Of a stretch of DNA of 42,583 nucleotides, positions 19,644-35,413 are shown in pieces (positions within the stretch are counted from its first letter, which is position 1; every line of letters begins with the position of its first letter). A model generated the notes under the pieces. That model made no database searches, was not told the DNA's origin, and was given only the letters and a program-made list of their open reading frames with translations. The stretch is from the NCBI GenBank assembly GCA_018993265.1, contig JAGKSW010000063.1, positions 1-42,583 of the forward strand, given 5' to 3'. This DNA comes from Nostoc sp. TH1S01 (lineage in GTDB: Bacteria > Cyanobacteriota > Cyanobacteriia > Cyanobacteriales > Nostocaceae). Position numbers and translations under genes: made by a program.

Positions 19644-20165
19644 ATGACTAGTCGTGTAGTAAAAGCAAAACTCATCGCCACAGAACAAGCTGCACCAGAT
19701 ATCGAATTCATGTTTAACCCCAGTCAGTTAGACTTCTCGCAGCAAATTAATTTGACCAAAAGTAGCGGTGCGCGTACAGGGCGAGGTTTACCAAAAGTTA
19801 GTTTCGCTTATCCCGAACCGTGCAGACTCAGTATTAATAACATTATCTTTGATACCTACGAGAGCGGTACTAGCGTCCTCACCCATCTGAAAAAGTTTGA
19901 AAAAGCCGTTAACTTTGCTGAAGCTGGCGCAGGTAAGGAAAAACGACCACCAGTATATATATTTACTTGGGGTGACCAACAATATTTACGCTGTTTTGTC
20001 CAATCTCTTAACTACAGCCTGACTTTGTTTTTACCAGACGGTACACCAGTGCGTGCCAAAGTTAACCTCACTCTAGAAGAAGTTGATGAATCAATATCTC
20101 AGCCAGGGATGAGTACATCTAGCAGCGTAGACCGGACTGGCGACAGCAGAAGTAGTCGGAGTTAA
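19644..20165 (+). CDS. CIS tube-type adaptor protein (Afp7/gp53-like, N-terminal part)
   Basis: A 173-residue protein that begins with VVKAKLIATEQAAPDIEFMF and NPSQLDFSQQINLTKS. It continues with YPEPCRLSINNIIFDTYESG, PPVYIFTWGDQQYLRCFVQS and PVRAKVNLTLEEVDE. This is the CIS tube protein family found in Afp/PVC-type and cyanobacterial contractile injection systems, where it connects the inner tube to the VgrG spike. Some family members carry a C-terminal LysM domain; this one stops before it, ending in a Ser-rich tail. It is the first gene of a collinear spike/baseplate series. The start ATG 19644 follows a heptamer array. Confidence 0.85.
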   Translation: MTSRVVKAKLIATEQAAPDIEFMFNPSQLDFSQQINLTKSSGARTGRGLPKVSFAYPEPCRLSINNIIFDTYESGTSVLTHLKKFEKAVNFAEAGAGKEKRPPVYIFTWGDQQYLRCFVQSLNYSLTLFLPDGTPVRAKVNLTLEEVDESISQPGMSTSSSVDRTGDSRSSRS

Positions 20166-20238
20166 TTCGACCTTTGGGGAATAGCCTGTAATACAATATC
20201 TTCACTAGGCTATTGGCAACCTCCTCTTGCCAATATGT

Positions 20239-22206
20239 ATGCCTGTTCTTTACATACCTGAGCCACTATTACAAATTGATGGCACTGATGCTTCTGCTGA
20301 TTTGATCAATGATATTTTGCAAATCACAGTAGAAGAAAGTCTGCATTTACCAGGAATGTTTACTTTAGTAATCCGTAATGATTACTTTCCAGGACTGACA
20401 ACAGAAGCAACTTGGAAGCATCAAAAATTATTTGCTATTGGTAAAAAAGTGAAAATCGGTTTTGTTTCCAGCACTACACAAAACGCAGATTTTGAAGATG
20501 CAGAGCAAGGTTACGTATTAGAAGGGGAAATTACAGCCATAGAAACTGAGTTCACTAGTGGTTCTCAAGCTCCCATCGTAATTCGTGGCTATGATATTTC
20601 TCACCGCTTGCATCGAGGACGTTACAATCGCTCTTTTCAAAATGTTACGGATAGCGATGTTGTAAATCAAATTATTGGTGAGTCGGGCATTAGCGCAGGT
20701 ACAGTTACTTCTACCACTATTGTTCATGATTACGTCTTTCAAGAAAATCAGACCAATATGGAATTTCTGCGGGAACGAGCAGCTCGCCTCGGCTTTGAAC
20801 TGTATGTGCAAGATGCTAAATTAAACTTCCGCCAACCGGCTCAAGACCAATCTTTATCGCTCAAATGGTTAGAAGATATTCATAGCTTCCGAGTTCGCGT
20901 TAGTAGTGCCGAACAAGTCAGTTCTGTGGAAGTGCGCGGCTGGGACTACTCTACCAAAAAGCCAATTATTTCTACAGCCTCTACAGAGCAGGTTATTACC
21001 ACCACAGATAACGGCAAAGGTAGTTCAACTAGCACAAAATTCACCGTCAAGCCGAAAATGATTGTAGTAGACCAGCCTGTGTTTAGTGTGAATGAAGCAG
21101 CAAAAATCGCCCAAGCGTTGTGTAATGAACTAGGCGGTGAGTTTGTTGCGGCTGATGCTGTCGGTGAAGGAAATCCCGACATCAGGCCGGGTAAAGTAAT
21201 TAAATTGACAGATATGGGTAGTTACAGTGGTAGCTACTACGTTACAGAAACTCGCCATCTGTTTCATGAGCGAAAATTTATTACAGAGTTTAGTGTGCGG
21301 GGTTTGCGTTCTGGAGATTTGTTAGCAACTCTCTCACCCCAAACGCATCTACAACCAGGGCAAACTATGTTGGTAGGTGTAGTGAGTAACAACCAAGACC
21401 CAAAAGGTTGGGGTCGTGTGCGGGTGAAGTTTCCAACCTTAACTGAAGAACATGAAAGTAATTGGGCGAGAGTTGTCAGCGTTGGTGCAGGCCCAGGAAG
21501 AGGTTTTGATTGTTTACCAGAAGTCAACGACGAAGTTTTGGTTGCTTTTGAACACGGCGATATTCACCGTCCTTACGTGATTGGTGGTGTCTGGAATGGT
21601 ACAGACGCACCACCAGAAAAAGTTAATGATACCGTTGTTGGTGGAAAAGTGCGCCTCCGGACGTTTAAAACCCGCGTTGGACATAAACTCCAATTTGTTG
21701 AAGAAGACAAAAGCAGTACTAAAAAAGGCGCATATCTGCAAACAATAGATGGTCATAATTTGCGGATGAATGACAGCGAGAAATTTGCTGAATTAGAAAC
21801 TACAGGCGGTCATAAATTTCGCTGTGATGACAGTAATAAAACTATTAGCTTGACATCCACAGGTGACATCACAGTTAAATCTGGGACAACCGGGACAGCC
21901 AAGAAAATTAGTGTCAACGGTGGTGAAATTGCTTTAACTGCAACGCAAAAAATTACTTTAACTGTAGGGGGTACAAGTATTGAACTTACACCCAGTGGTA
22001 TTACCATGCGAACTACTGGAACTTTGAGTATACAAGCAGCTAGTTCTATCAGCGTGCAATCTGGAGGTTCTTTGAGTGCTAATGCTGGTGGCGCACTCTC
22101 AGCTAATTCTGGTAGTTCGATTAGTGTCAATGCTGGTGCTGCGGTTAGTATCAACGGTGCAGCTTCCGTTGGCATTTTAGGCGGGATAATTCGGTTGAAT
22201 TGTTAA
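20239..22206 (+). CDS. CIS spike protein, VgrG/Afp8-like (gp27-gp5 fusion)
   Basis: The central spike trimer of a contractile injection system. The ATG at 20239 gives 655 residues; an upstream TTG at 20227 is also in frame. The N-terminal gp27-like (phage GPD) domains cover roughly 1-365 (FEDAEQGYVLEGEITAIETE; NMEFLRERAARLGFELYVQD). An OB-fold follows around 375-455 (LVGVVSNNQDPKGWGRVRVK ... VIGGVWNGTDAPP), then a beta-helical needle of Gly/Ser/Thr-rich strands ending LGGIIRLNC. No lysozyme or toxin domain is fused, so cargo must be loaded otherwise. A PAAR tip gene follows 274 bases later across a repeat-rich spacer. Confidence 0.93.
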   Translation: MPVLYIPEPLLQIDGTDASADLINDILQITVEESLHLPGMFTLVIRNDYFPGLTTEATWKHQKLFAIGKKVKIGFVSSTTQNADFEDAEQGYVLEGEITAIETEFTSGSQAPIVIRGYDISHRLHRGRYNRSFQNVTDSDVVNQIIGESGISAGTVTSTTIVHDYVFQENQTNMEFLRERAARLGFELYVQDAKLNFRQPAQDQSLSLKWLEDIHSFRVRVSSAEQVSSVEVRGWDYSTKKPIISTASTEQVITTTDNGKGSSTSTKFTVKPKMIVVDQPVFSVNEAAKIAQALCNELGGEFVAADAVGEGNPDIRPGKVIKLTDMGSYSGSYYVTETRHLFHERKFITEFSVRGLRSGDLLATLSPQTHLQPGQTMLVGVVSNNQDPKGWGRVRVKFPTLTEEHESNWARVVSVGAGPGRGFDCLPEVNDEVLVAFEHGDIHRPYVIGGVWNGTDAPPEKVNDTVVGGKVRLRTFKTRVGHKLQFVEEDKSSTKKGAYLQTIDGHNLRMNDSEKFAELETTGGHKFRCDDSNKTISLTSTGDITVKSGTTGTAKKISVNGGEIALTATQKITLTVGGTSIELTPSGITMRTTGTLSIQAASSISVQSGGSLSANAGGALSANSGSSISVNAGAAVSINGAASVGILGGIIRLNC

Positions 22207-22254
22207 TTTGGTCAATAGTCAATAGTCATTGGTCATTTGTCCTTTGTCATTGGT

Positions 22255-22318
22255 TCTTCCCCCACACCCCTGCACCCTTACTCCCTATTTTCTACTCCCT
22301 ACTCCCTACTCCCCACCT
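22255..22318. repeat. pyrimidine-rich short tandem repeats
   Basis: An irregular ACCCCTG/ACCCTTA stretch leads into repeated CTACTCC units, with a further remnant at about 22459-22475 just before the PAAR start. Together with the palindromic element between them these fill the VgrG-PAAR gap. Confidence 0.65.
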
Positions 22319-22323
22319 TTCAA

Positions 22324-22450
22324 GGGCAGGTTTTTAGGCTTTCGATAAATAGTTGAGAATGTTCTCAATTATTGAACGTAGTTTTAAGTTCTCAGCCAAT
22401 GATTTTGGTTTTAAAATCCCAAAAATTTCTCTAATCAAAAAAACCTGCCC
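22324..22450. repeat. 127-bp element with 12-bp terminal inverted repeats
   Basis: GGGCAGGTTTTT at 22324-22335 is exactly complementary to AAAAACCTGCCC at 22439-22450. Inside lies a small hairpin, TTGAGAA-TG-TTCTCAA. It is non-coding and flanked on both sides by CTACTCC-type repeats. It looks like a MITE, but no convincing target duplication is visible. Confidence 0.5.
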
Positions 22451-22480
22451 CAGAAAGCTACTCCCCACTCCCTCAAAATT

Positions 22481-22768
22481 ATGTTTCCAGCAGCACGATT
22501 AACTGATTTAACTGTTACAGGCGATCCGATTACTGGGCCTGGTGTGCCGAATGTTTTAATTGCAGGTTTACCCGCAGCTTGTGTTGGCGATTTAGTAGCG
22601 GGGCCTGTGGTAACTGGTAGTATTGTTTTGGGGTCTTTTACGGTTTTGATTGGTGGCAGACCTGCGGCGCGAGTTACATCTCAGGTAGCTGGTGTGAATA
22701 CTGTAACTGGTGTACCATTAACTACTGTTGTGGGTGTAGGTGCGCCGACTGTGTTAATTGGTGGTTGA
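22481..22768 (+). CDS. PAAR-domain spike tip protein
   Basis: A 95-residue PAAR protein that caps the VgrG-type spike and sharpens it. It starts MFPAARLTDLTVTGD and has the repeating beta-hairpin pattern GPGVPNVLIAGLPAACVGD, LGSFTVLIGGRPAARVTSQV and GAPTVLIGG. The length matches stand-alone PAAR proteins and it looks complete. Its last 88 bases are overlapped by the 3' end of the histidine kinase gene on the opposite strand. It has no Shine-Dalgarno; the ATG follows a CTCCCTC repeat and CAAAATT. Confidence 0.92.
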   Translation: MFPAARLTDLTVTGDPITGPGVPNVLIAGLPAACVGDLVAGPVVTGSIVLGSFTVLIGGRPAARVTSQVAGVNTVTGVPLTTVVGVGAPTVLIGG

Positions 22769-24474
22769 ATGGTGAAAGAGCCTTTACTGAGCATATTTTT
22801 TGGTAAGTCAACATTCTTGCGAGCCGTGATGGGAATTTGAATGCAGAAAGTTGTACCTTGTCCGGGTTCAGAGAAACATTCTATTTTACCGTTGTGCTTT
22901 TCGATGATTTTGCGACAAATAGGCATTCCTAAGCCTGTACCTTTACCAATGGGTTTGGTAGTGAAGAAAGGTTCAAAGAGGCGATCGCGCACATCTTCGG
23001 TCATTCCTGAACCATTATCTTGAATCCGAACTACTATATATGGAGAATTTGTAAATTTTTTGTTATTTTCTAATGAGGTACTAATAGTAATAATTCCCTC
23101 TTGTTCTTGACCATCTAAAGCATCGATCGCATTGGCAATAATATTCATAAATACCTGATTTAGTTGGCTGGGGTAGCATTCAACTAAAGGCAGTACATCA
23201 TAATTTTTAATAACTTCAATTCCTAATTTGCCACAGCCTGTCTTTAAGCGATTATTTAATATCAGTAATGTACTATCAATACCTTCATGAATGTCGGCTG
23301 CGGTCATTTGTGATTGTTCGGTGCGTGCAAAGTTGCGTAAAGATAAAACAATCTCACGGACACGCTTAATTCCTAAATTCATTGAACTTATCAGTTTAGG
23401 TAAATCTTCAGAAAGAAAGTCTAAATCAATTTCTTCGGTGATTTCTTGAATTTCTGGTAAGTACTTGTAATTTTTTTGGTAAACATGCACTAGGCGTAAT
23501 AAATCGTCAACATACTGTTGAGCATGGCTAATATTGCCGCTAATAAAGTTGACTGGATTATTAATTTCATGGGCAATACCGGCAACTAATTGCCCTAAAC
23601 TCGACATTTTTTCGCTTTGAATTAACTGCGCTTGTGTTTGTTGTAATTCATGAAGTGTAGTTTGGAGTTGTTGTGCTTGGATTTGGGCAATTTTGGCAGC
23701 TTCACAGCTTTGTTCGTAGAGCAGGGCTTTTTCTATTGCTACTCCCGCTTGCATTGCCAATATGCTTAATAGTTTTAAGTCTCTGTTGGTATAATTAATC
23801 GCAGTTTCGCTACCAATGACAATTGCCCCAACTACTCGTTCTTCTACATTTAAAGGTACACAAATCAACGAATTGAATTGTTTCCGTTCTCCAATGAATT
23901 TTGGATAAGATACAATATTGTTGACAATTTCGCCTCTACCCATTTGCACTATATTACCAATAATACCTTCACCTATTTTTATTGGTGGTTTAAGATAGGT
24001 ACTGCTACCAATTTCAGCCAGAATTTCCAAAATATTTGTTTTTTTATTTAGCAATAAAATAGCCCCTCCAGTTGAGGGGATTAATTGACTAGCTTCTTGA
24101 ATTAGCAATCGAGAAACTTGTTTGAGATTGAGGCTGGCAGTAACTTGAATCGAAACATCATGAAGTAAATCAATTTCTTGATATCTTTCTAATAATTCAT
24201 GAGCGAGATTTTTTTTCTCAGACTCTTGTTTTAGGGCATAAATGAGAAGTGCAACAACACCAACCGCCTGTTGTGAACCACGTACCCAACCAATCAATTC
24301 ATTAGAAAACTCTATAGGATGGGCGATCGCAGAATTTTCTCCTGTTGTACCGAAGAGTATTTGTCCTTCTGTATCTTCTATTGTGAACTGATCATCTATC
24401 GCTTTGGCAAAATCATTTAAAAGAGCTAACACATCTTTTTTTAAAATCAGATTGCTGAAGTTGCTTTTAACCAT
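22681..24474 (-). CDS. GAF-domain sensor histidine kinase
   Basis: A 597-residue soluble histidine kinase. The N-terminal region (1-100) may be a degenerate sensory domain. A GAF domain spans about 105-255, followed by a coiled coil (~258-290, QIQAQQLQTTLHELQQTQAQ). The HisKA phospho-acceptor is His302 in LVAGIAHEINNPVNF. The HATPase spans about 410-550 with N box NQVFMNIIANAIDAL, G1 DNGSGM, F FEPFFTTK and G2 GKGTGLGM. No receiver or TM segment is present, so a separate response regulator is needed and none is adjacent. It is inserted antiparallel between CIS genes. The last ~29 residues are encoded antisense to the PAAR gene, beyond the usual kinase end. Confidence 0.92.
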   Translation of the reverse strand: MVKSNFSNLILKKDVLALLNDFAKAIDDQFTIEDTEGQILFGTTGENSAIAHPIEFSNELIGWVRGSQQAVGVVALLIYALKQESEKKNLAHELLERYQEIDLLHDVSIQVTASLNLKQVSRLLIQEASQLIPSTGGAILLLNKKTNILEILAEIGSSTYLKPPIKIGEGIIGNIVQMGRGEIVNNIVSYPKFIGERKQFNSLICVPLNVEERVVGAIVIGSETAINYTNRDLKLLSILAMQAGVAIEKALLYEQSCEAAKIAQIQAQQLQTTLHELQQTQAQLIQSEKMSSLGQLVAGIAHEINNPVNFISGNISHAQQYVDDLLRLVHVYQKNYKYLPEIQEITEEIDLDFLSEDLPKLISSMNLGIKRVREIVLSLRNFARTEQSQMTAADIHEGIDSTLLILNNRLKTGCGKLGIEVIKNYDVLPLVECYPSQLNQVFMNIIANAIDALDGQEQEGIITISTSLENNKKFTNSPYIVVRIQDNGSGMTEDVRDRLFEPFFTTKPIGKGTGLGMPICRKIIEKHNGKIECFSEPGQGTTFCIQIPITARKNVDLPKNMLSKGSFTIQPPINTVGAPTPTTVVNGTPVTVFTPAT

Positions 24475-25162
24475 TTGCTCTCATCCTGGTTTGATTGCAG
24501 ATTTTGCTTAAGCATTAGTCTTTTATACCTAATTAATGGTTACTTTCATTTATTCTTTGCCATTTGTCACAAATTATGAGTGCATCTAGCACCAGAGCCT
24601 TCCCATGTTGTTAGGTATCAGATTTTGTTTTTGTTAAATTAAAATTTAAAATATTATTTGATGCAACTCGATTATAAATTAATAATTTCAGAGAATTCAC
24701 CGTAAATTCATTGAATTTTTTAGATTCAGTAAATATACATAGGTTGGAATTTAGCGAGAAAGCAAGACCAAGTTTGAATCAAAGAGGTTAACTAATAAGA
24801 CCGCAGGGAAGCAAGGGAGAGAGTTGGAAACTTTTCCCACGATTTTCATGGTGTAAATTGTATGCACAATAGCTGAGAAATATTACGTTTGCTTGCAACT
24901 TAGAGGTTGTTTTAAAAGTCTAAATTATTACTCACCGGGCGATTGGAAATCGCGGCTACACAGACGAAACCCACCTACGTGGGTTTGAAAATCTTGATTT
25001 TGCGTTAGTCCACGCAGGTGGACTTTGCTTGTGTAGTAGCGAATTCTATTCGCCCAATACTTTTCAAACATCCTCTTAGTCTGAACTCGACTTTTGGCGA
25101 ATGGTCTTAGTTTTGCTGATGGGCATAAAGTAGCGTAAACTGCTCATCACTGTGTACCTACC
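24475..25162. other. 688-base gene-free region between kinase and gp25 genes
   Basis: The kinase-proximal half is AT-rich and should contain the kinase promoter (minus strand). The 24903-25075 part is a MITE. The remaining ~85 bases precede the gp25 gene, where the plus-strand CIS promoter for the second block may lie. No ORF or RNA gene was recognised. Confidence 0.55.
24903..25075. mobile_element. 173-bp MITE with 3-bp target duplication
   Basis: Terminal inverted repeats GAGGTTGTTTTAAAAGT (left) and ACTTTTCAAACATCCTC (right) face each other with three mismatches. TTA directly flanks both ends (24900-24902 and 25076-25078). The interior is itself an imperfect inverted repeat (GGGCGATTGGAAATCGC versus GCGAATTCTATTCGCCC). 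It has two perfect or near-perfect small hairpins, CCCACCTACGTGGG and GTCCACGCAGGTGGAC. A TNA triplet duplication is typical of IS5/IS1031-type transposition. There is no transposase inside, so it is non-autonomous. Confidence 0.75.
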
Positions 25163-25564
25163 ATGCCAGAACTCAATCAAAATCAACACCTGGGGACGGG
25201 CTGGTCTTTTCCGTTACGGGTGAATGTCCAAGGAGGTCTGCAACTTAGTAAAACCGATCGCAATATTGAAGAGTCGATGATGCTGATTCTGCGTACCGAA
25301 TTGGGTGAACGTGTCTATCGCCCTAACTTTGGTTCGCGGTTGTCGGAATTGACTTTTGCACCGATGAATACGCAAACTTTATTACTTTTGCGTCTACACG
25401 TCCAAGAAGCTTTGGAAATGTGGGAACCGCGCATTGTTCTAGATGCGGTGCGTGCTGACCCAGATCCCCTGCGAGGTCGTGTAGATATTGTGATTGAATA
25501 TCATCCTAAAGATACGCATGATTCGCGGAGTTTAGTATTTCCGTTTTATTTGAATGGTCAATAA
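25163..25564 (+). CDS. baseplate wedge protein, GPW/gp25 family
   Basis: A 133-residue gp25-like protein (Afp9 type), which in phage tails and CIS nucleates the sheath on the baseplate. Family features are GTGWSFPLRVNVQGGLQL, the EESMMLILRTELGERVYRP core with the conserved GER-x-x-x-PxFG (RPNFGSRLSELTF), and the closing DIVIEYHPK. ATG 25163 follows GTACCTACC without a strong ribosome site. It opens the second CIS gene block, downstream of the MITE, and leads into the gpJ-type gene. Confidence 0.92.
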   Translation: MPELNQNQHLGTGWSFPLRVNVQGGLQLSKTDRNIEESMMLILRTELGERVYRPNFGSRLSELTFAPMNTQTLLLLRLHVQEALEMWEPRIVLDAVRADPDPLRGRVDIVIEYHPKDTHDSRSLVFPFYLNGQ

Positions 25565-25586
25565 AAAGGCAGGAGGAGTATTTAAT

Positions 25587-25633
25587 ACTCAGCACTCAGC
25601 ACTCAGCACTCAGCACTTTTAACTCAGCACTTT
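25587..25633. repeat. tandem ACTCAGC heptamers
   Basis: Four ACTCAGC units are followed by CACTTTTAACTCAGCACT. That exact 18-mer also occurs at 2199-2216 and 30297-30314. The array ends 9 bases before the GTG start of the baseplate gene. Confidence 0.8.
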
Positions 25634-25642
25634 ATTAATATT

Positions 25643-27808
25643 GTGGAATTTGATTTTTTACCGAAGTTACCCAAGTCTAATCTAGATGATCGCACTTTTA
25701 AAGATTTAGTTGATGAATGTATTTTGCGGATTCCCCGCTATTGTCCAGAATGGACGAATTATAACCCCAGTGACCCAGGTATCACGCTAATTGAGCTATT
25801 TGCTTGGTTGACTGACCAAATGTTGCTGCGGTTTAATGAAGTACCAAAGCGCAATTACATTACTTTTTTAGAGTTATTAGGTGTGAGGTTGCAAGCACCT
25901 GCGCCTGCGGTGGCGGATATTACTTTTTATCTCAGTGCGGCTTTACCGGACACTTATACAATTCCGGCTGGGGTGGAGGTGGCGACAATTCGCACGGAAA
26001 CAGAAGAGGCGATCGCATTCACTACGGATCGGCCTTTAGTTATTGATAAACCACAAATTCGCCACTTTCTCACCTGTCCCACTGCTGATCAAAAACCGGA
26101 AATTTTGCGCGATCGCTTTACTAATTTATGGACGATGCGCTCTGATGGTGAGTGGTATGGTAGAGAGTTGGCACTGTTTGAAGAACAACCACAGCCTGGA
26201 AACACTTTTTATTTAGTGATTGATGGGGAATCCCAGTGCGAAGGTAACGTTCTCGCGCTGCAATTAAAAGGAGAAGCCGCCACCGCCACGGGGATTAACC
26301 CTGACATTCCGCCACGCCGTTGGGAAGCTTGGAACGGTGTGGAATGGGAAGCGGTACTACTGCAAGAATCGGACGACAGCACTAAGGGTTTTAGTTTTAG
26401 CGAATTGCTAACCCAAGGGATTAATCCCCTACAAGGTGCAGATATCGTCCTGCATTTACCGCAATCTTGGCCTGTGACGACCTTCACCGCCTATCAAGGA
26501 CGTTGGTTGCGTTGTGTTTATACTGCGCCTCAACCCAATCAGCCAGGATATAGCAGTTCGCCGCGTATGATTGGTTTGTCTGTTAGATCAATTGGTGGGA
26601 CTGTGGGTGCGAGTCAAAGTGAATTGATTCGTAACGAAATTTTAGGGGAAAGCGACGGTACGCCGGGACAGACTTTTCAGTTACAGGGAGTTCCGGTGTT
26701 GAATCGTCGGGAAGATGAATATTTGATCATTTCGCCGCCAGGGGGAATTCCTCAACGGTGGTATGAAGTCAGCGATTTTGCTAATTCTCTCCCCCAAGAT
26801 TTGCACTACACCGTCGATTCGCGCACCGGGACGGTACAGTTTGGCCCGGTGATTCGGGAACCAGCCCAACTCCAGCAACAGACGGAATTAAGGCGGGGAG
26901 TAGGGAATTTTGCCAATATTCAGGAGTTAGAAAGGCAATATGGTGCTGTTCCGCCGCGTGGGTCGGTGATTCGGATGGTTGCATACCGCACGGGTGGTGG
27001 ACGTAAGGGAAATGTGCAACGGGGGACGATTACGGTAGCGAAAAATGCGGTTCCTTATGTGGCGAGGTTAATTAATCATACACCCGCGCGTAACGGTTCT
27101 GATGCGGAATCTTTGGAAGATGCGGTGATTCGCGTTCCGGCGATGTTGCGAACCCGCGATCGCGCTGTGACTCCTGAAGATTTTGAGGTGTTGACCCTAC
27201 AAGCTGGTGGTGGTGCGGTGGCGCGGGTGCGTTGCTTACCACCGAAAACTACACAAGAAGCGGGAACTATCAAATTATTAGTTGTCCCGGCGGCGAATAC
27301 GGATGCAATTAATCGTGGCGAAGGTATCGAACCGGAATTATTTAGTCTGAGTCCGCAATTGCGCGACCAAATTATTGCTTATTTAGATGAACGGAGGTTA
27401 TTAGGAATCCAAGTTAAATTGCAAGCCCCGGAATATGTGGGTGTAGCAGTGCAAACAGAAGTCGCACTGGAACCAGAATACAACCATCCCGCCGCCCAGC
27501 AAGAGATTTTGGGTAAGTTACGGGTGGCGTTGTATCGATTTCTTAACCCAATTACGGGGGGTCAAGATGGGAGAGGCTGGCCGTTTGGGCGACCTGTTTA
27601 TCCTTCGGATATTGTCAATTTGTTCCAGCAATTTCCGGCGGTGCGATATTTGGGGGTAGTGCAGTTGTTTGAATTGCGCTACGTGGGTTCAACTTGGGTG
27701 CGATCGCTTCCCCAAAACCCGGTGATTGATCCGGGGGCGTTGGGTTTAATTTGTTCTTGGCAAAATACGCGGTTGCGTTCTGGTCACGTAGTTAATTTAA
27801 TTCAGTAA
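25643..27808 (+). CDS. baseplate assembly protein, gpJ/gp47-like (Afp11-type)
   Basis: A 721-residue baseplate wedge component. The start is GTG 25643 (MEFDFLPKLPKSNLDD). The N-terminal segment CPEWTNYNPSDPGITLIELF and WLTDQMLLRFNEVPKR is diagnostic of the putative baseplate assembly proteins of CIS and T4-like tails. The middle holds long insert domains (about 130-430). The gpJ core follows from about 450: VPAMLRTRDRAVTPEDFEVL, ARVRCLPP and VKLLV-like strands, with FGRPVYPSDIVNLFQQFPAV near the end. It forms the wedge that surrounds the spike with gp25 and the P2 gpI-type protein. It is followed after 56 bases by the next tail gene. Confidence 0.9.
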   Translation: MEFDFLPKLPKSNLDDRTFKDLVDECILRIPRYCPEWTNYNPSDPGITLIELFAWLTDQMLLRFNEVPKRNYITFLELLGVRLQAPAPAVADITFYLSAALPDTYTIPAGVEVATIRTETEEAIAFTTDRPLVIDKPQIRHFLTCPTADQKPEILRDRFTNLWTMRSDGEWYGRELALFEEQPQPGNTFYLVIDGESQCEGNVLALQLKGEAATATGINPDIPPRRWEAWNGVEWEAVLLQESDDSTKGFSFSELLTQGINPLQGADIVLHLPQSWPVTTFTAYQGRWLRCVYTAPQPNQPGYSSSPRMIGLSVRSIGGTVGASQSELIRNEILGESDGTPGQTFQLQGVPVLNRREDEYLIISPPGGIPQRWYEVSDFANSLPQDLHYTVDSRTGTVQFGPVIREPAQLQQQTELRRGVGNFANIQELERQYGAVPPRGSVIRMVAYRTGGGRKGNVQRGTITVAKNAVPYVARLINHTPARNGSDAESLEDAVIRVPAMLRTRDRAVTPEDFEVLTLQAGGGAVARVRCLPPKTTQEAGTIKLLVVPAANTDAINRGEGIEPELFSLSPQLRDQIIAYLDERRLLGIQVKLQAPEYVGVAVQTEVALEPEYNHPAAQQEILGKLRVALYRFLNPITGGQDGRGWPFGRPVYPSDIVNLFQQFPAVRYLGVVQLFELRYVGSTWVRSLPQNPVIDPGALGLICSWQNTRLRSGHVVNLIQ

Positions 27809-27832
27809 CCTCTTGCATAGATATTTTTTGTC

Positions 27833-27858
27833 TCGCGCAAAGGCGCAAAGGCGCAAAG
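27833..27858. repeat. GCAAAGGC tandem repeat, one arm of a 26-bp inverted pair
   Basis: A GCGCAAAG-type tandem unit lies just upstream of ATG 27865. The 26-base block is exactly reverse-complementary to 35375-35400, 7.5 kb away on the other side of the four genes between them. Confidence 0.8.
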
Positions 27859-27864
27859 AAAGAT

Positions 27865-28911
27865 ATGAGTAGTCAAATTCTGCACTTGCAATTAACTTCG
27901 ATGCAATTACCTAACGCGATGCAAACGTCGGCGGTGGGTAAGGGTGCAGATGATTTTTCGCAAATAGCACTCAGTAGCCAAACTACAATTCGCGCGGGTT
28001 GTGATTTGGTAATTCATCCGCCAGAACCTAGTGAGATAGTTTTGCAACTGGAAAACTTGGGTAGTCGGATGCTGCGGTTGAATGTGCGAGTGGAGGGGAA
28101 TTTCCCGGCTGAGTGGTGTCGCATTGGGATGGAGGGGTATGAACTTGCGCCGCGATCGCGGATGGATGTGGTGTTATATTTCCAACTTCCCGCCGATTTT
28201 TTTGAAACTCCTGCGTTGGCGGCTGGTCAATCTTTGGTGTTGGATTATCACAGTCGCATTCATGTTAATTACACTGAGGAGGGAACTGGTAGACAGTTAG
28301 TTGAAACGGCTGGGTTAAATTTATATGTCCGTCCCCGCAGTCTTTATCCTAAGTTTTTACCTGCGGTTTATCGAGAAGTTGATTTTATTGGGCGCTTCTT
28401 GAAAATTTTTGAACAGGCGTTTGAACCCTCAGTGCAAACGCTGGATGTGTTGTGGGCTTATCTCGACCCCATGACCGCACCGCAGACATTGTTACCTTTT
28501 CTCGCGCACTGGGTAGCTTGGCCTGTTGACCGCCGTTGGACTATCGAAAGACAACGTTATTTAATTCGTTCGGCGGTTGAACTTTATCGCTGGCGGGGAA
28601 CACGTAGAGGTTTGCGTTTATACATACATCTTTATACAGATTTACCTTTAGATGAACACATTACAAGAGAAGTTGATAAACATATTTGTATTGAAGAAAT
28701 TCGCGGCGAGGGTTTTGTTTTAGGAAATACACGCCTAGGCGAAGATGCAATGATTGGCGGCGGTCGTCCGTATTATTTTATCGTTCGTTTACGTCCCCAA
28801 CGCTCAAATCAAGTAGACGAACAGTTAGTCCGCCACATCATCGACCAAGAAAAACCCGCTTTTTGTACCTATGAACTCTATATAGATGAGTCAATAACTA
28901 ATGGTCAATAG
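27865..28911 (+). CDS. phage tail protein of the P2 gpI type with N-terminal beta-sandwich
   Basis: A 348-residue baseplate protein. The C-terminal ~190 residues match the tail protein I family: LYPKFLPAVYREVDFIGRFL, FEQAFEPSVQTLDVLWAYLD, LPFLAHWVAWPVDRRW and AVELYRWRGTRRGLRLYIHL. The first ~150 residues form a separate beta-rich segment (SEIVLQLENLGSRMLRLNVR, FPAEWCRIGMEGYELAPRSR) that looks like an Ig/NPCBM-type sandwich. Similar modules occur in the two TM proteins downstream. The gpI family pairs with gpJ in the baseplate, which fits its neighbour. The start ATG 27865 follows GAAAGAT directly after a heptamer array. Confidence 0.85.
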   Translation: MSSQILHLQLTSMQLPNAMQTSAVGKGADDFSQIALSSQTTIRAGCDLVIHPPEPSEIVLQLENLGSRMLRLNVRVEGNFPAEWCRIGMEGYELAPRSRMDVVLYFQLPADFFETPALAAGQSLVLDYHSRIHVNYTEEGTGRQLVETAGLNLYVRPRSLYPKFLPAVYREVDFIGRFLKIFEQAFEPSVQTLDVLWAYLDPMTAPQTLLPFLAHWVAWPVDRRWTIERQRYLIRSAVELYRWRGTRRGLRLYIHLYTDLPLDEHITREVDKHICIEEIRGEGFVLGNTRLGEDAMIGGGRPYYFIVRLRPQRSNQVDEQLVRHIIDQEKPAFCTYELYIDESITNGQ

Positions 28912-28934
28912 TCAAAAGGATAAAGCATAAATTT

Positions 28935-28995
28935 TCATACTTCATACTAGCCTGCGGCAAGCCGCTGCGCTTCTACACACTTCATACTTCATATC
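28935..28995. repeat. CTTCATA heptamers interrupted by a GCGGCAAGCCGC hairpin
   Basis: TTCATACTTCATACT is followed by an inserted ~28-base GC-rich palindrome (GCGGCAAGCCGC at 28954-28965). The ACTTCATACTTCATA run then continues up to ATG 28996. A second repeat type has apparently inserted into the first. Confidence 0.7.
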
Positions 28996-30228
28996 ATGGA
29001 AATTCACCCCCTAGAACGGCTACAAATTCAAGATGGTTTATTAATTAACGCTGAACGGTGGAAGCGATCGCATGATTATCACCGTCAGCGACAAAATATT
29101 CATTATCAATCACTTAATGAACCGGGAATAGTTCAGGGTTTAGGGGTAAGTTTGATTCCTGCACCGAAGGATGTACCATCACAATATAACGATGGGCGAT
29201 GGTTACAAATTCAGCCAGGAATTGCTATTGATGTGAATGGGAATCCGATTGTGGTTCCGCAACCGATAGATTTTCATATCTCGGCTGATATTACGGAAGA
29301 AAAACCCCGCTTAATTTATTTAGTTGTGCGTTATGTAGACCCAGATACTTTACAACGCAAACAAGTTAGTGAATTTGAAACAGAAACTTTTCGGATTGAT
29401 GAAAAAACAACGCCGCCTGATGTGTTTGAGGTGGAGTTATGTCGAATTTTATTACAACCGGGATTAGTAACGCTACAAAATCCTCAAGATGTATTTTATC
29501 CTAGTTTGAATAGTTTGGATTTTCGTTACCGAAAAATTGCGCGATCGCGTCCTACGGCGGTGGTAAGAGTAGCGCATCTTGATACTCAGGAAACCAAGGA
29601 AGGTAATAGTTTTGCCAATCTCGCTTCTTTATTAAGATACACCGAAAGTCTGACCTTTACTCTCCAAGGAGATGAGCAAATTCCCCGCTTAAATTTTCCG
29701 CTTTTAGACCCAACGATAGTAATTAATTATGATTTGCTATTTATTACGGGAAGTGAACCATTAATTTTAAATGTGCAAGAATTGGCTAATTTTAAAAGCT
29801 ATCTAGATAGTGGGGGAGTTTTATTAGTAGAATCGCCTACCGATGCTGTTGATAGATTAGAAAGCATTTTAGAAATTACTGAAAGTTTAGCCACGCCTTT
29901 AGAAGATTTACGCCGACTTGATAGATATCATGCGTTACGAACACAGCCGTTTTTATTTGCTGCTTTACCAGCTTTTAATCAAAAACCAATGCAAATTTTA
30001 GTTGCAGGTGGCATTGTTTTAGTTATTGGTGATTTATCACTAGCTTGGGGATTAGATGAAAAGTTAACTTTACCACGAGAAACGATTCGCACCGCCCAAG
30101 AATTAGGCATTAATATTCTCAATTTTGCATGGAAGCGTAAGCGAATGACGCAATTACGGCAACAAACTGCAATTCCTGTTTCAAGTAAGCCTGATCCATT
30201 AAAAAGCATTTTTAATAAGTTGGAATAA
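28996..30228 (+). CDS. CIS-associated DUF4159-domain protein
   Basis: A 410-residue protein without a classical tail-protein name. The N-terminal ~180 residues (HPLERLQIQDGLLINAERWK, NDGRWLQIQPGIAIDVNGNP, YLVVRYVDPDTLQRKQVSEF) look like the baseplate-attached beta-rich region of tail-associated proteins. From about 190 to 375 it resembles DUF4159, a glutamine-amidotransferase-like alpha/beta domain: INYDLLFITGSEPLILNVQE, FKSYLDSGGVLLVESP, then HALRTQPFLFAALP. No catalytic Cys/His pair is obvious, so a structural role is likely. It is collinear with the CIS genes and probably adds an accessory ring or extension. Confidence 0.7.
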   Translation: MEIHPLERLQIQDGLLINAERWKRSHDYHRQRQNIHYQSLNEPGIVQGLGVSLIPAPKDVPSQYNDGRWLQIQPGIAIDVNGNPIVVPQPIDFHISADITEEKPRLIYLVVRYVDPDTLQRKQVSEFETETFRIDEKTTPPDVFEVELCRILLQPGLVTLQNPQDVFYPSLNSLDFRYRKIARSRPTAVVRVAHLDTQETKEGNSFANLASLLRYTESLTFTLQGDEQIPRLNFPLLDPTIVINYDLLFITGSEPLILNVQELANFKSYLDSGGVLLVESPTDAVDRLESILEITESLATPLEDLRRLDRYHALRTQPFLFAALPAFNQKPMQILVAGGIVLVIGDLSLAWGLDEKLTLPRETIRTAQELGINILNFAWKRKRMTQLRQQTAIPVSSKPDPLKSIFNKLE

Positions 30229-30235
30229 TTTTTTA

Positions 30236-30314
30236 ACGCAAAGTATCGCAAAGTTTCACGCGAAGGAACGCAGAGTTTTAAATACTCAGCACTAAGCACT
30301 TTTAACTCAGCACT
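30236..30314. repeat. composite repeat: CGCAAAG units plus ACTCAGC/AGCACT heptamers
   Basis: ACGCAAAGTATCGCAAAG and a degenerate ACGCGAAGGAACGCAGAG are followed by TACTCAGCACTAAGCACTTT and the 18-mer shared with 2199 and 25614. The array ends 6 bases before ATG 30321. Confidence 0.7.
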
Positions 30315-30320
30315 CTATAT

Positions 30321-32543
30321 ATGGCAGTTAATCTCGTTAACACTAAAATTTCTACACAAGTACTGAACTTTCAGCCGGGTGGTTCACCAGCTTCTTTTGA
30401 AGTGACTGTAGTTAATGAACGTAATGATTTTTCTTCTTTTCAAATCGAAATAATTGCAGCTGGTGGCGGGGAAAGTTTAGGAACTAATTGGTACAGTATT
30501 AAACCTGCGGTTAGTGCGAAAAGTCCACCAGGAGATAGTACGAAATTTGAAGTAACTATTATTAATACCCCTGTTGCTGGTTTTATCGGCAAAATGAACT
30601 TGATAGTTCGGATTTTTTCACTGGAATTTCCGGTTGATGAAGACAGACAATTGCTGCGATTGATAGTTGAAGCAGGTGTTGGTACTGTACCGATGCAGAT
30701 TGAGTTACCAATCCGAGAATTTACAACTCAACCCCAGGGAATGATTGAGATTCCTGTGCGGGTTTTTAACCCTACTCAGCTACCTGCGAGTGTTTCTTTA
30801 AAACCAATAGGACTGAAATCCCAATGGTTTATTAATGGCGATGAAAAACTATTAGCAGTTCCGCCAGGGAATAAAGCAGAAACTTCATTTTTATGTCAGT
30901 TACCAATTGCTGAAGAAGTACCGAGTCAAGCATATCCTTTTACTATTGAAGCGAATTATCCGAATGGTTTTCCTTCACGCAGTCAAGAAGGTATAGTTAA
31001 TGTTAACCCAGCAGGATCTATCAATTTTCAATGTATCTCAGAAAAACGACAGATACCAGCATTTCGTCCTTGGCTACCGCAGCCAAGAGCCAATTCTACG
31101 ACTTACCAACTGGAATGTAAAAATCTCAGTAATTTAAGTCAGTGTATCAATATTGAAATTAAAGACGGTGAAGAAAGACAACCTAAATGTTTTTGGGAAG
31201 TTAACCCAGACTTTCTGGAATTACAACCAGGAGAAACTCAGAATTTACAACTAGTAGTAAAGAAACGGCGACATTGGTTTGGTTTAACACATAAACTTTC
31301 ATTTAAAGTAAATGCTATTATTTCAGACGCTAGAATCAATGCTAACAATGAAAACCAATTTATCAGATTGATTATTTATCCTGTTTTACATATTTGGCTA
31401 CAGATAGTATTAGGAATTTTGTTGTTGATTCTACTCTGGTTTGTATCAGGGCTAAATCCTAATAACCCATTTTTTGGACATCACAAGCCTGTGACATCGG
31501 TGCAATTTAATGGTGTAGGCGATCGCGCTGTTAGTGCTTCTCAAGACCAAAGTATTATCAGATGGAATATTGCTGGTTTTATTAATCCTTTGATTAATCA
31601 ACAGGAGGAGAAGATACCCGACCAGGATATAAAGAAATCTGTGCGGGTTGTACGCTATAAACCTGTAGATAATGATGTAGTTGCAGCCGGGTTAGAAAAT
31701 GCTGAAATTCAACTTAGAGATGTTCTAGGAAGTAGTGATAATAAAGTTATTTTATCGATAGAAAATAAAGATGACCGTGTTTTTGGCTTAGAATTTAGCC
31801 AAGATTCTCGCTTTTTATTTAGCGGGCATGGTAGTGGTGCAATTTTGCAATGGGATGTTAATAGCGCCCTTTTAGGTGATAGTAAAAGTTTAGGAAAACC
31901 AATTAATACTCAAAATGTAAATTTTGCTATTTCTGCTTTAACTTTAGCTGGCAAGGATAAACAAAGCTTAGTCATTGGCGGCAGATATAATAAATTAGCT
32001 ATTTGGAATTTTATTAAAGATGAGAAACCACGGGAGGTTTTATCTAAGCCCCCTGGGAGTCAAACTGATTATACTGGCACTCAAGATGATTATATTGTTA
32101 GTGCCGATAGTGCAGATTACAAACCAAATTTATTAGCAACGGCTGATACTATGGGAAAAATCACTTTATGGAATATGGAACAATGTTTAGATAAAAATAG
32201 GAGTGATTGTATTTCAGAGCAATGGTTTGGTCATGGTGGTAAAGCGGTGCGTTCAGTTGCTTTAAGTAGACATGGTTGTTATTTAGTGAGTGGTGGTGAT
32301 GATAATCAAGTAATGTTATGGCCATTAACTCAAGAAGGTAATCGAGCGCCAAATTTTACAAATGGAATAAAAATACATAATAATAATTGGATTGATTGGA
32401 TGATTTTTTGGAAAAAAAAAGGAGTTAATAGTGTGGATATCAAGGTAGTTAAAAATAAAATTTTAATTATTAGTGGTAATAATGACACTACAGTTAGATT
32501 TAATATGACAAATATTGAGAAAACATTAAATTGCCAAGAATAA
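30321..32543 (+). CDS. single-TM protein: beta-sandwich domains, TM helix, WD40 propeller
   Basis: A 740-residue protein, probably a membrane component of the CIS. Residues 1-350 are beta-rich with two or three Ig-like sandwiches (SFEVTVVNERNDFSSFQIEI; MIEIPVRVFNPTQLPASVSL; PGETQNLQLVVKKRRHWFGL). One TM helix spans about 357-377 (HIWLQIVLGILLLILLWFVS). The C-terminal part from ~385 is a WD40-like propeller: HHKPVTSVQFNGVGDRAVSA, DQSIIRWNI, LFSGHGSGAILQWDV, LATADTMGKITLWNM and GCYLVSGGDDNQVMLWP. The positive charge before the helix (KKRRHW) and lack of a signal peptide favour a cytoplasmic N-terminus and a propeller across the membrane. Topology and CIS anchoring are inferences from architecture and position. 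Confidence 0.72.
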   Translation: MAVNLVNTKISTQVLNFQPGGSPASFEVTVVNERNDFSSFQIEIIAAGGGESLGTNWYSIKPAVSAKSPPGDSTKFEVTIINTPVAGFIGKMNLIVRIFSLEFPVDEDRQLLRLIVEAGVGTVPMQIELPIREFTTQPQGMIEIPVRVFNPTQLPASVSLKPIGLKSQWFINGDEKLLAVPPGNKAETSFLCQLPIAEEVPSQAYPFTIEANYPNGFPSRSQEGIVNVNPAGSINFQCISEKRQIPAFRPWLPQPRANSTTYQLECKNLSNLSQCINIEIKDGEERQPKCFWEVNPDFLELQPGETQNLQLVVKKRRHWFGLTHKLSFKVNAIISDARINANNENQFIRLIIYPVLHIWLQIVLGILLLILLWFVSGLNPNNPFFGHHKPVTSVQFNGVGDRAVSASQDQSIIRWNIAGFINPLINQQEEKIPDQDIKKSVRVVRYKPVDNDVVAAGLENAEIQLRDVLGSSDNKVILSIENKDDRVFGLEFSQDSRFLFSGHGSGAILQWDVNSALLGDSKSLGKPINTQNVNFAISALTLAGKDKQSLVIGGRYNKLAIWNFIKDEKPREVLSKPPGSQTDYTGTQDDYIVSADSADYKPNLLATADTMGKITLWNMEQCLDKNRSDCISEQWFGHGGKAVRSVALSRHGCYLVSGGDDNQVMLWPLTQEGNRAPNFTNGIKIHNNNWIDWMIFWKKKGVNSVDIKVVKNKILIISGNNDTTVRFNMTNIEKTLNCQE

Positions 32544-32590
32544 TTTTAAAACAAAAAACCAATTTTTATTTATTGTTTTGGGGGTAAAGC

Positions 32591-35335
32591 ATGACTGCCA
32601 TAAATTCAAGAACTAGTAATTCTCAACTCGGTTTGAGTATGGCAGATGTGTTAATGCTGCCACCACAACAGCGTAAAATTGTCCAGTGGTTAATTAAGCG
32701 TCCTGATAGCGTTACCCTCACCCAAGTATCAATTCATTTAGATTTAAATCAACAAGCCACTTTAGCTTTATTAGATGAATTAGTTGAAGAAGGTTTTGTA
32801 CAGCAAATATTAACTGGTGGTGAGGTGAAATATCGCGTTAATTTGGCAGCAAAACGTGGTATTCAACAACAAACTCTGCAACAAACTCTTGCGCCGGGAA
32901 ATCCTCTAGCAATTATTTTTAATCCTTCTGGTGATTATGCAGTCCAGGCTGGCGCAAAATTTGAAATTAATGTCACGGTGACAAATAAAGGTCAAGAAAG
33001 TGCGTTAATTGATATTTTTATTGATGAATTATCACCGCAATTAATTCAATGGTGTGATGCACCAAAGCAAAGGTTAGCACTTGTCCCTAATTCTGTGGGT
33101 GAGGTGTTATTTGAATTTCAAGTACCTGTAACCGCAATTCCCAGCACTTATAACTATGCAATTGTTGTTGATGCGCCGTTACATTATCCTGAAGATACGC
33201 CAATTAGACATGGGGCAAAAATTCAGGTTTTACCTGCAATTGAAACGGTAGTTAGAGTTAGTGACCCGACTTTTAGCTTACTACCTTTAACAAGTTCGCG
33301 ATCGCCTGCTAAAATTCCCCCAGGCGGCATCTTACAAGTTAATGTCAATGTTCACAACCGTTCGGATAGAGTAGACAGATTTCGCCTCAGTTGTCTCGAT
33401 TTACCCGAAGAATGGGTGAGTATCCGCTATCCCGAAGGCTTGGAAACAGCCGGACTTGTCATCCCTAACATGGGTTTGAATCTCAACCCCGGCGAGAAAG
33501 GAGAAATCTTACTTCAGTTTCAACCACCACTAGGCGCAAACGCCGGACTTTATTACCCCAGCATCCGCTTGTACTCCGCCAACAACCCTGATTTGATGCT
33601 GTTGGACGTGATTTATTGGGAAATTTTACCGTCTTACCTGCTAAATGCAGAAATGCTGATAGTAGTAAATCGGGTGAGACGCAAAAGTGGAACTTTTGAA
33701 GTTAAATTAACGAATGCGGGTAATACTGTTAGGGAAATTACTTGTCAAGCGGTTCCTGTTGATGAAGATCAGGTATGTACTTACGTAACTTCGCCAACAG
33801 TTTTACGTGTGTTCCCTGGGGAAAAAGTTGCAACGCAAGTAACAGTCACACCTGTGAAATGGTGGTATCGTCCCATGTTCGGCGCGGGAAGATTGCTGAA
33901 TTTTCGCATTGAATTAACAGATCAGCAACAAATACCTTTACCAAACCCCGCTTTACCCGGAAGCTTAATTTGGGAACCGCGTCCTTGGTGGCAATTTTTA
34001 CTCGTATTGCTGACGGCTTTAGGAATTATTGGTGCGATCGCATTTTTGATTTGGCTGTGGTTATTCCGTCCCCCCACAGTTCCGAAAATCTTGCAATTTC
34101 TCTCATCCGACGCTACTTATCAAGCATCAAACAATGATTTTATTCGCCTAAGTTGGCAAATTCGCCACCCAAAAAAATTGCAAACATTAGCTTTAACTGG
34201 TTTATTTGTTGATGGTACGGCGGCGGTACAACCAATAGTTTATACCTTCAACGGTAAACTACCCCAAGAACTACAACCATTCTGTCAAATGGGTGCAGTC
34301 TTAACTTGTTCTAACGTTCCTACCGATGCGCGTAAACCAGGAGATTATACTTTCCAACTACAAGCATTTGCTAATAATAATCCTGACTTACCAGCCGACA
34401 CAATTAAAACTAATACGGTTAAAATTGTCCCCATTCCCCCACCACAAATTTTAGAATTCTCCCCAGCGCAATCTGTTTACCAAGAAGTTAAAGCTAGTTC
34501 TACTAAAATTAGACCAGATACCATTCGCCTCAACTGGAAAATTAACGATTTAGATAAGATAAAAGAACTGCGAGTAATTGGGCGATCGCCTGAAAATTTA
34601 GTTAACAGTCCACTACAAACTTATAATTTTAATCAAGCCATTCCCAATACCCTCAAAGATTTCTGCAAACCGCAAAAAAATCAACCACCAAATCAGCTAA
34701 AATGTCGCAATGTTCCGACGGATAATCGCGGCGCAGGTGACTATATATTTGAACTGCAAATATTTACTAAAACTGATACCGATAAACCAAGTATTTCTCA
34801 AAAAACAGACTTAGTAAAAGTCCGACCTCTACCCAGCAAAATTCTCGAATTTAAAATTGATGGTAACAACCCCTTACCCAAATATCCCATAGTAATTAAT
34901 CCACTTAAACCAAACAAACCCCTCAACTTATCTTGGAAAGTCGAAGGGAGTAATAACATTAAGGTCGAACTTCTTCCCGCGCCAGGAGATATCCCCCGTA
35001 ACGGTACAATACCTTACCCAGTTAATCAACAACCAGGTAGCGAAACCATCACTTTACAAGTTACCAATTCCACTGGTGAAAAAGTAACTCGTTCCGTCAC
35101 CATCGAAACTTTTTTAGCACCGACAGCAAATCCAACACCAGTAATACCTTCAGGAGTTATAAAACCTGTAATTCCAATTGTTACCCCATCACCAGGACTA
35201 CCTACACCACCCCCCGGTACTTCTCCCGGAACCTCACCATCTCCAACCAACAACACCGCACCTAATCCTAACTCTCCCACACCATCCCAACCAGATAAAC
35301 TCTCACCCTTAGAACTCCCCCCAGGATTTGATTAA
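32591..35335 (+). CDS. single-TM protein: winged helix, beta-sandwiches, TM helix, Pro-rich tail
   Basis: A 914-residue protein directly following the WD40 protein, 47 bases apart. Residues ~17-88 form a winged-helix unit (MLPPQQRKIVQWLIKRPDSV, VSIHLDLNQQATLALLDELV, GGEVKYRVN wing). Several Ig-like sandwiches follow (FEINVTVTNKGQESALIDIF; GGILQVNVNVHNRSDRVDRF). One TM helix lies at about 467-491 (WQFLLVLLTALGIIGAIAFL). After it come further beta-domains repeating a RLSWxI/NLSWKV theme, then a Pro/Thr/Ser-rich tail from ~845 that may span the cell wall. There is no signal peptide, so the winged helix should face the cytoplasm. The layout parallels the preceding protein and suggests a membrane anchor pair for the CIS, which is an inference. 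Confidence 0.7.
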   Translation: MTAINSRTSNSQLGLSMADVLMLPPQQRKIVQWLIKRPDSVTLTQVSIHLDLNQQATLALLDELVEEGFVQQILTGGEVKYRVNLAAKRGIQQQTLQQTLAPGNPLAIIFNPSGDYAVQAGAKFEINVTVTNKGQESALIDIFIDELSPQLIQWCDAPKQRLALVPNSVGEVLFEFQVPVTAIPSTYNYAIVVDAPLHYPEDTPIRHGAKIQVLPAIETVVRVSDPTFSLLPLTSSRSPAKIPPGGILQVNVNVHNRSDRVDRFRLSCLDLPEEWVSIRYPEGLETAGLVIPNMGLNLNPGEKGEILLQFQPPLGANAGLYYPSIRLYSANNPDLMLLDVIYWEILPSYLLNAEMLIVVNRVRRKSGTFEVKLTNAGNTVREITCQAVPVDEDQVCTYVTSPTVLRVFPGEKVATQVTVTPVKWWYRPMFGAGRLLNFRIELTDQQQIPLPNPALPGSLIWEPRPWWQFLLVLLTALGIIGAIAFLIWLWLFRPPTVPKILQFLSSDATYQASNNDFIRLSWQIRHPKKLQTLALTGLFVDGTAAVQPIVYTFNGKLPQELQPFCQMGAVLTCSNVPTDARKPGDYTFQLQAFANNNPDLPADTIKTNTVKIVPIPPPQILEFSPAQSVYQEVKASSTKIRPDTIRLNWKINDLDKIKELRVIGRSPENLVNSPLQTYNFNQAIPNTLKDFCKPQKNQPPNQLKCRNVPTDNRGAGDYIFELQIFTKTDTDKPSISQKTDLVKVRPLPSKILEFKIDGNNPLPKYPIVINPLKPNKPLNLSWKVEGSNNIKVELLPAPGDIPRNGTIPYPVNQQPGSETITLQVTNSTGEKVTRSVTIETFLAPTANPTPVIPSGVIKPVIPIVTPSPGLPTPPPGTSPGTSPSPTNNTAPNPNSPTPSQPDKLSPLELPPGFD

Positions 35336-35374
35336 AAATTAACCGCAGATTAACGCAGACGAACGCGGATTTTC

Positions 35375-35400
35375 CTTTGCGCCTTTGCGCCTTTGCGCGA
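35375..35400. repeat. GCGCCTTT tandem repeat, second arm of the 26-bp inverted pair
   Basis: The exact reverse complement of 27833-27858. It follows an ACGCAGA/ACGCGGAT composite repeat and lies 14 bases before the CHAT gene start. Confidence 0.8.
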
Positions 35401-35413
35401 AATAAAAAATACT

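Follow-up and report, generated by a model that had tools for sequence, protein, structure and literature searches.

How can a bacterium encode the spike and baseplate of a contractile injection system (CIS) with no sheath, tube or ATPase gene beside them? The question is raised by Nostoc sp. TH1S01, in which a 42,583-bp stretch of DNA, the whole of contig C229 and hereafter the window, carries such a spike/baseplate locus at positions 19644-35335. The locus lies in the interior of the contig, so that no contig end cuts it. The first-pass annotation of this DNA offered two answers, namely that the contractile part is encoded elsewhere or that the locus is a specialized baseplate module, and added that its membrane proteins recall the thylakoid-anchored CIS (tCIS) of multicellular cyanobacteria. 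Our results favor the first answer. We consider it quite probable that one complete CIS has its genes in three places, the window carrying the third with the spike and baseplate, and that its particle is docked by membrane proteins encoded next to the baseplate.

Spike and baseplate in the window, sheath and tubes elsewhere

Searches of the window genome (G000, a 7.65-Mb draft in 247 contigs, 100% complete) for the sheath and tube families found these parts on two other contigs, C223 and C26, and the idea of a baseplate module without a contractile part thereby lost its support. Phage_sheath_1 has a single match genome-wide, on C223; of the four matches to the gp19 tube family, C223 carries three and C26 one; gp25 has one, inside the window. 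Contig C223 (13,423 bp) encodes the sheath, three tubes, two Pvc16-type caps and an Afp15-like AAA+ ATPase. One strand carries the genes for TACa, TACb, gp19c, gp19b, gp19a, the sheath and the short Pvc16, TACa being a sub-cut-off match to Phage_TAC_7 and TACb its paralog by BLAST. The opposite strand encodes a histidine kinase, a response regulator, the long Pvc16, the ATPase, a DUF4157/eCIS_core protein and Uma2.

The third locus, on C26, consists of genes for a TPR-CHAT protein, a protein that we call kinaseTM, a gp19 tube and a long repeat protein. The tube is of the Cis5 type, as CIS5_fam (5.7e-29) fits it much more strongly than does CIS1_fam (1.3e-7); among PDB sequences, All3324 (5.8e-15) is about as close to it as 9gtp_a (2.4e-13). 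KinaseTM, with a PstS/PBP-like C-terminal domain, is encoded just upstream of the tube (L007 8670-10886, plus strand). The start of the repeat protein gene lies at L007 11644-12423 (plus strand), and the gene is cut by the contig end. Across nine relatives this protein varies from 280 to 2362 residues, with conserved ends flanking Ser/Thr-rich sequence, and a repeat period is present in seven of the eight repeat proteins longer than 400 residues (best lags 25 to 95; none in that of G009). Such features would fit a tape-measure protein, for which it is a candidate.

The window locus itself comprises nine genes on the plus strand, all of them open frames. Six encode core components: a Cis7-like tube adaptor of the CIS_tube family (19644..20165; Pfam PF19266, 1.4e-21), a VgrG-like spike, Cis8 (20227..22206; PF04717 Phage_base_V, 3.6e-27; NF033848 VgrG-related, 3.2e-109, over the cut-off), a PAAR tip, Cis10 (22481..22768; PF05488, 1.1e-12), a gp25-like sheath initiator, Cis9 (25163..25564; PF04965, 2.4e-20), a gpJ-like baseplate wedge of 721 residues, Cis11 (25643..27808; Baseplate_J, 1e-11; TIGR02243, 2.6e-204), and a gpI-like wedge of 348 residues, Cis12, with an extra N-terminal immunoglobulin (Ig)-like domain (27865..28911; Tail_P2_I, 1e-9; TIGR02242, 6.6e-39; CIS12_fam, 2.3e-19). 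Three large extra genes follow. The first encodes a Cis13-like N-terminal domain fused to DUF4159, an amidotransferase/ThuA/GIFT-like domain (28996..30228; DUF4159, 1.2e-13), and the other two encode proteins with Ig-like domains and a trans-membrane (TM) segment, here named WD40TM (30321..32543; WD40, 3.7e-17) and WHTM (32591..35335). This gene content had been correctly recognized in the first-pass annotation, and so had the lack of contractile genes: the 20 window open reading frames scanned with Pfam yielded none of the domains expected for sheath, gp19 tube, cap and AAA+ ATPase, smaller frames having been scanned only in part. Neither of the findings that would have changed its reading turned up, as the Pfam and genome family searches found no sheath or tube gene upstream in the window and none of the core frames is disrupted.

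Separation of the three loci in the genus

In 10 of the 11 genus genomes, the window-type gpJ, the sheath and the C26-type tube are found at three separate places. Three of them carry all the parts on one contig, at linear distances of 0.36-3.75 Mb: the distances are 0.36 to 2.6 Mb in G026 and G118, whose genomes each consist of a single contig, and 1.8 to 3.75 Mb in G072, where the contig measures 6.5 Mb. The remaining seven split genomes have them on different contigs. The flanking genes of the separated loci are common to the genomes inspected (G026, G072, G118, G121 and G098). In the eleventh genome, G120, the system occurs in two other copies, whose gpJ is 65 and 64% identical; for each copy, a single contig holds tube, gpJ and sheath.

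Arrangements in some relatives suggest how the three loci arose. In G074, G100 and G078 (gpJ 82, 82 and 91% identical), all modules lie in one stretch of about 41-50 kb, which contains the sheath module, a two-component pair, the cap, effector-like genes, kinaseTM, the Cis5-type tube and the repeat protein, as well as Cis7, VgrG, gp25, J, I, DUF4159, WD40TM, WHTM, CHAT and ShlB; gene calls are missing for the ATPase in G078 and for PAAR in G100. Against this order, the genus has one break point where the effector-like genes meet kinaseTM and another where the repeat protein meets Cis7. The existence of relatives with one contiguous locus thus suggests that the system was broken up from such a locus in the lineage of the window.

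Dispersed CIS genes are already known in print. The 16 AFP-like genes of Cardinium hertigii are spread over five genome regions (PMC3486910), a likeness in dispersal, the types of CIS not having been compared; Cardinium differs in having the reduced genome of an endosymbiont, and the available text of that report describes no comparable set of membrane proteins (PMC3486910). Our literature search, which covered few subscription journals, found no title on a split CIS among those listed and no publication joining contractile injection with DUF4159, and for contractile injection, WD40 and cyanobacteria together it listed only a sponge metagenome study. A split system of this kind would probably be missed or taken for an orphan baseplate, as happened in the first-pass annotation.

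The loci could also be a decaying remnant, that is, a cluster broken by rearrangement that no longer yields a working machine. The split itself, the kinase gene inserted between the PAAR and gp25 genes, the fragments of gpJ and WHTM in G051 and the short split frames in G118, where gene calling yields gp19a in two and the repeat gene in pieces, are what such decay might leave behind. However, the ratio of nonsynonymous to synonymous substitution (dN/dS) tells otherwise. It was estimated by the Nei-Gojobori method for 20 genes from all three loci, comparing the window genome with G026, G072 and G118 over the called frames only, some of the relatives' genes being cut and gp19a being split in G118. 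The ratio is well below 1 in all 20 genes: 0.03-0.22 in 19 of them (gp25, 0.04-0.06) and 0.25-0.30 in WD40TM, whose WD40 half is 64% alike in Nostoc sp. FACHB-110 and whose N-terminal half is 80% alike. By these substitution ratios, selection on the genes of all three loci is purifying. Since, in addition, the nine window genes are all open and all three parts have been kept in 10 of the 11 genus genomes, a remnant is improbable, although of the readings that compete with a complete CIS encoded in three places it survives best.

Relationship to Streptomyces type IId systems

Judged by its sheath and gpJ, the system has its closest relatives among the cytoplasmic type IId CIS of Streptomyces and not in tCIS, a placement based on PDB relatives and on a gpJ tree whose only other reference type is one tCIS row. 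The best PDB matches of the sheath are Streptomyces CIS (8bky/9gtp, 9.7e-117; 8bl4/9gts, 4.6e-114), followed by 9ezm (1.6e-90), the tCIS sheath All3325 of Anabaena (1.5e-51) and Pvc2 (1.3e-47). A profile of ten gpJ sequences matches S. coelicolor Cis11 (9gtp_1K) at 6.3e-146, AlgoCIS (7aeb) at 6.8e-13 and All3317 at 1.6e-8. For gpI too, the S. coelicolor CIS is the best PDB match, the C-terminal half alone aligning to 9gtp_E.

Among the best 80 of 227 gpJ relatives in named genomes, 77 are cyanobacterial, one is from Chloroflexota (L215) and two are from Streptomyces. Three of the 80 loci (L146, L217 and L218) have no gpJ frame of 600 residues and were excluded from the tree, which was built by a quick method with a drawn root and has 79 rows: the window, 75 cyanobacterial loci, L215, L216 and the tCIS row. 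The cyanobacterial rows are separate from L215, L216 and the tCIS row (96), and the window groups with Nostoc spongiaeforme FACHB-130 (gpJ region L182, G098) and Nostoc sp. FACHB-110. The presence of type IId systems in filamentous Cyanobacteria and Chloroflexi has been published (PMC10020575), and such systems are also described from Roseiflexus and other Chloroflexota and Deinococcota, the published tree placing that of Roseiflexus in the same lineage (PMC12998442).

The S. coelicolor system, CISSc (9gtp, 9gts, 8bky, 8bl4), which has the closest sheath, gpJ and gpI in PDB, resembles that of the window further: it has no classical fiber, and a bitopic protein, CisA, is encoded downstream of the baseplate genes (PMC12237407). 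The window system differs in the extra Ig-like domain of Cis12 and in having its genes in three loci. The slot of CisA is taken by the Cis13/DUF4159 protein and the two Ig-TM proteins, which show no recognizable kinship with the CisA-like protein of S. netropsis (L216:12167-13648). The WHTM profile gives only a low-complexity alignment to the latter (3.4%), and Pfam finds in WHTM neither the DZR nor the F5/8-type domain of the S. netropsis protein, although the two may yet share a fold. The Chloroflexota locus L215 (gpJ 41% identical) offers a parallel. Downstream of its gpJ is a protein whose Ig-TM part is related to WHTM (97.9%, 6.3e-13), with three FHA domains in place of the winged helix. 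Taken together with CisA and with WHTM and WD40TM, this protein means that three phyla place a bitopic protein at this position, two of them with related Ig-TM parts.

Might the system instead be a tCIS of the Anabaena kind, merely rearranged? The tCIS of Anabaena sp. PCC 7120 is likewise cyanobacterial, has a Cis13-type N-terminal domain and is linked to the membrane (PMC8894136), as we propose for the window system, and in the window, too, baseplate genes adjoin genes for membrane proteins. This analogy is the part of the first-pass comparison that stands; the core proteins tell against the rest, because sheath and gpJ are far closer to Streptomyces. In tCIS, moreover, there are extensions in Cis11, Cis12 and Cis13 and a crown in Cis19 (PMC8894136), whereas the window has short versions of Cis11 and Cis12 and carries its TM segments on proteins of their own. 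The 721-residue gpJ lacks the cage and C-terminal extensions of the 1231-residue All3317, to which it aligns in the J domain only, and the 348-residue gpI lacks the long Cis12 extension, which covers residues 610-1100 of the tCIS protein (PMC8894136). The DUF4159 protein has no tCIS-style TM helix after its N-terminal domain: its best hydrophobic stretch, from residue 334, is in the DUF4159 fold and not near 122-154. Finally, G029 carries a tCIS-like cluster with its own sheaths and a gpJ frame of 1166 residues, separate from a gpJ of the window type with its neighbors (L128, at G029:C1:2540000-2559999, and L136). A rearranged tCIS is therefore unlikely, marginally more so than a remnant, although the particles may still be located at thylakoids, and the data point instead to an uncharacterized kind of CIS in cyanobacteria beside tCIS.

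Co-occurrence of the modules in the family

The family sample of 118 genomes contains 48 with this gpJ and 70 without. The sheath of this type is found in 46 of the 48 and in none of the 70, the Cis5-type tube in 45 and none, WHTM in 46 and none, the N-terminal domain of the DUF4159 protein in 47 and none, and kinaseTM in 46 and one. These counts use thresholds that we set ourselves (in bits: gpJ >400, sheath >650, Cis5-type tube >185, WHTM >300, DUF4159 N-domain >190, kinaseTM >170), below which 16 of 64 genomes with a gpJ match and 28 of 74 with a sheath match were dropped. Also dropped were WHTM fragments in G000 (a second, short one), G030, G051, G052, G018, G111, G090 and G022, and weak matches to the DUF4159 N-domain in G018, G090 and G051. 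The link between WHTM and gpJ persists where their genes are far apart: 557 kb in G038, 2.5 Mb in G090 and, in G108, where gpJ, sheath and WHTM are mutually separated by megabases.

Several observations weigh against a single three-locus system docked by its own membrane proteins. Fisher's p, below 1e-28 for each of the five co-occurrences, ignores kinship. The 48 genomes hold 53 gpJ loci of this type, of which 25 have the sheath within 45 kb, three at 72-108 kb and four more than 200 kb away on the same contig; a further 19 have it on another contig in draft assemblies and are not counted as split, and neither is G010, first read as split, where two parts are at contig ends. The last two loci, in G104 and in the one-contig genome G029, have no sheath of this type, so baseplate genes can persist without it. 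WHTM is not adjacent to gpJ in many relatives: among the 51 loci with at least 8 kb of sequence past gpI, DUF4159 follows downstream in 41, WD40TM in 24 and WHTM in 19, and in G117 and G120 both WHTM and WD40TM are near the sheath module instead. The broken frames of G118 described above belong here as well. As to topology, charges flanking the TM segments are uninformative, and conserved Cys residues stand on both sides of the segment in WD40TM.

From G029 and G104, and from the window locus itself with no sheath, tube or ATPase, one could conclude that the spike and baseplate form a stand-alone device working without contraction. This is very unlikely given the nearly strict association of gpJ with the sheath across the family and given that the window genome's own sheath and tubes are under purifying selection. 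A further point is the low dN/dS of gp25, the component through which the sheath is usually attached (Weiss et al.). That the parts are really adjacent and only appear split through fragmented assembly, as 247 contigs, a C223 of only 13.4 kb and a C26 ending within the repeat gene might suggest, is scarcely credible in view of the other genes on both sides of the window locus within its contig and the distances measured within single contigs of G026, G118 and G072.

Membrane proteins and a possible docking mechanism

WD40TM consists of Ig-like domains, a TM segment near residue 358 and a WD40 propeller. In WHTM, the AlphaFold2 model and VIA-align indicate a winged helix, three Ig-like domains, a TM helix at 466-489, three more Ig-like domains and a Pro-rich tail; its Pfam matches, to NPCBM_assoc and HTH_IclR, are weak and below cut-off. 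The two proteins are related to each other, as judged from an alignment at 98.8% over 455 columns. The N-terminal domain of gpI aligns to WHTM at 88.8% and to WD40TM at 86.1%, against 0.03% and 0.10% for two controls. The hydrophobic segment is present in 23 of 26 WD40TM homologs and the TM segment in 16 of 16 WHTM homologs. Elsewhere in the window genome there is a WHTM-like fragment of 66 residues (G000:C112:39042-39239; 7.2e-27).

The DUF4159 protein has a Cis13-like N-terminus: residues 14-115 match CIS13_fam (NCBIfam NF053767) at 42.6 bits, under the curated full-length cut-off of 370 and over the N-terminal part only, and the match recurs in 40 of 40 DUF4159 relatives. Kinship with TssK was considered on account of a weak Foldseek match (5y0e, E 1.8e-3, TM-score 0.18) and of phage receptor-binding and tail-fiber matches in BFVD. 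It was set aside, as the N-terminal profile found no TssK among PDB sequences, Pfam and PHROGs gave nothing solid, and CIS13_fam explains this N-terminus better; nor does TssK appear among the 50 VIA-align rows listed, a list taken up by the C-terminal domain.

These parts can be assembled into a mechanism. Products of the spike and baseplate locus (C229), of the C223 locus with its sheath, tubes, caps, ATPase, two-component system and DUF4157 effector-like gene, and of the C26 locus with its Cis5-type tube adaptor, candidate tape measure and PstS-like-domain protein would come together in the cytoplasm as one particle, following the example of type IId CIS in Streptomyces (PMC10066040, PMC12237407). 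The baseplate would carry the Cis13/DUF4159 protein, and Cis12, through its Ig-like arm, would contact the Ig-like domains of the two TM proteins, WD40TM and WHTM, on the cytoplasmic side of a membrane. We infer that these two proteins dock the particle there; their domains beyond the membrane might sense a signal, and docking would trigger firing, as proposed for CisA in Streptomyces.

More tentatively, and with somewhat less than even confidence, we suggest that cyanobacterial type IId-like CIS in general carry a trans-membrane trigger of their own, made of the Cis13-amidotransferase-like fusion, the Cis12 Ig arm and the two Ig/TM proteins, whose outer domains (the WD40 propeller and an Ig tandem with likely disulfides) would act as sensors of the thylakoid lumen or periplasm and set off the cytoplasmic particle from within. 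If so, a docking complex of new parts would fill the role that TssK-TssJLM has in the type VI secretion system and CisA in Streptomyces, and it would be a near-obligate partner even where its genes are megabases from those of the particle. The near-strict co-occurrence of WHTM and the Cis13/DUF4159 protein with gpJ makes this a testable answer to how fiberless type IId particles meet the membrane.

Neighboring genes and minor observations

The gene between the PAAR and gp25 genes encodes a GAF/histidine kinase (22681..24474, minus strand; PF02518, 4.6e-26) and is found at the identical position in G026, G072, G118, G121 and G098. At its 3′ end it shares 88 bp with the PAAR gene, so that the last kinase residues are read from the PAAR complement. 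Genes for a DUF3352 protein and a 163-residue protein flank the window locus upstream. Directly after the CIS genes, at 35393-39608 on the plus strand, are those for a CHAT-TPR protein and a ShlB-type transporter, an arrangement shared by G074, G100, G078, G026, G118 and G079; the TPR-CHAT gene of C26, close to the Cis5-type tube, is a second one. GC skew falls to -0.31 in the interval 34001-36000, which takes in the Pro-rich tail of WHTM and the beginning of the CHAT gene. Two further genes concern inteins. At 8385-11024 (plus strand) of the window, a DnaB helicase frame contains an in-frame intein, with Intein_splicing and LAGLIDADG_3 between two DnaB_C pieces, and on C26 (L007 2-880, minus strand) the conserved part of a DnaX-like frame, read from its translation, is apparently interrupted by an intein.

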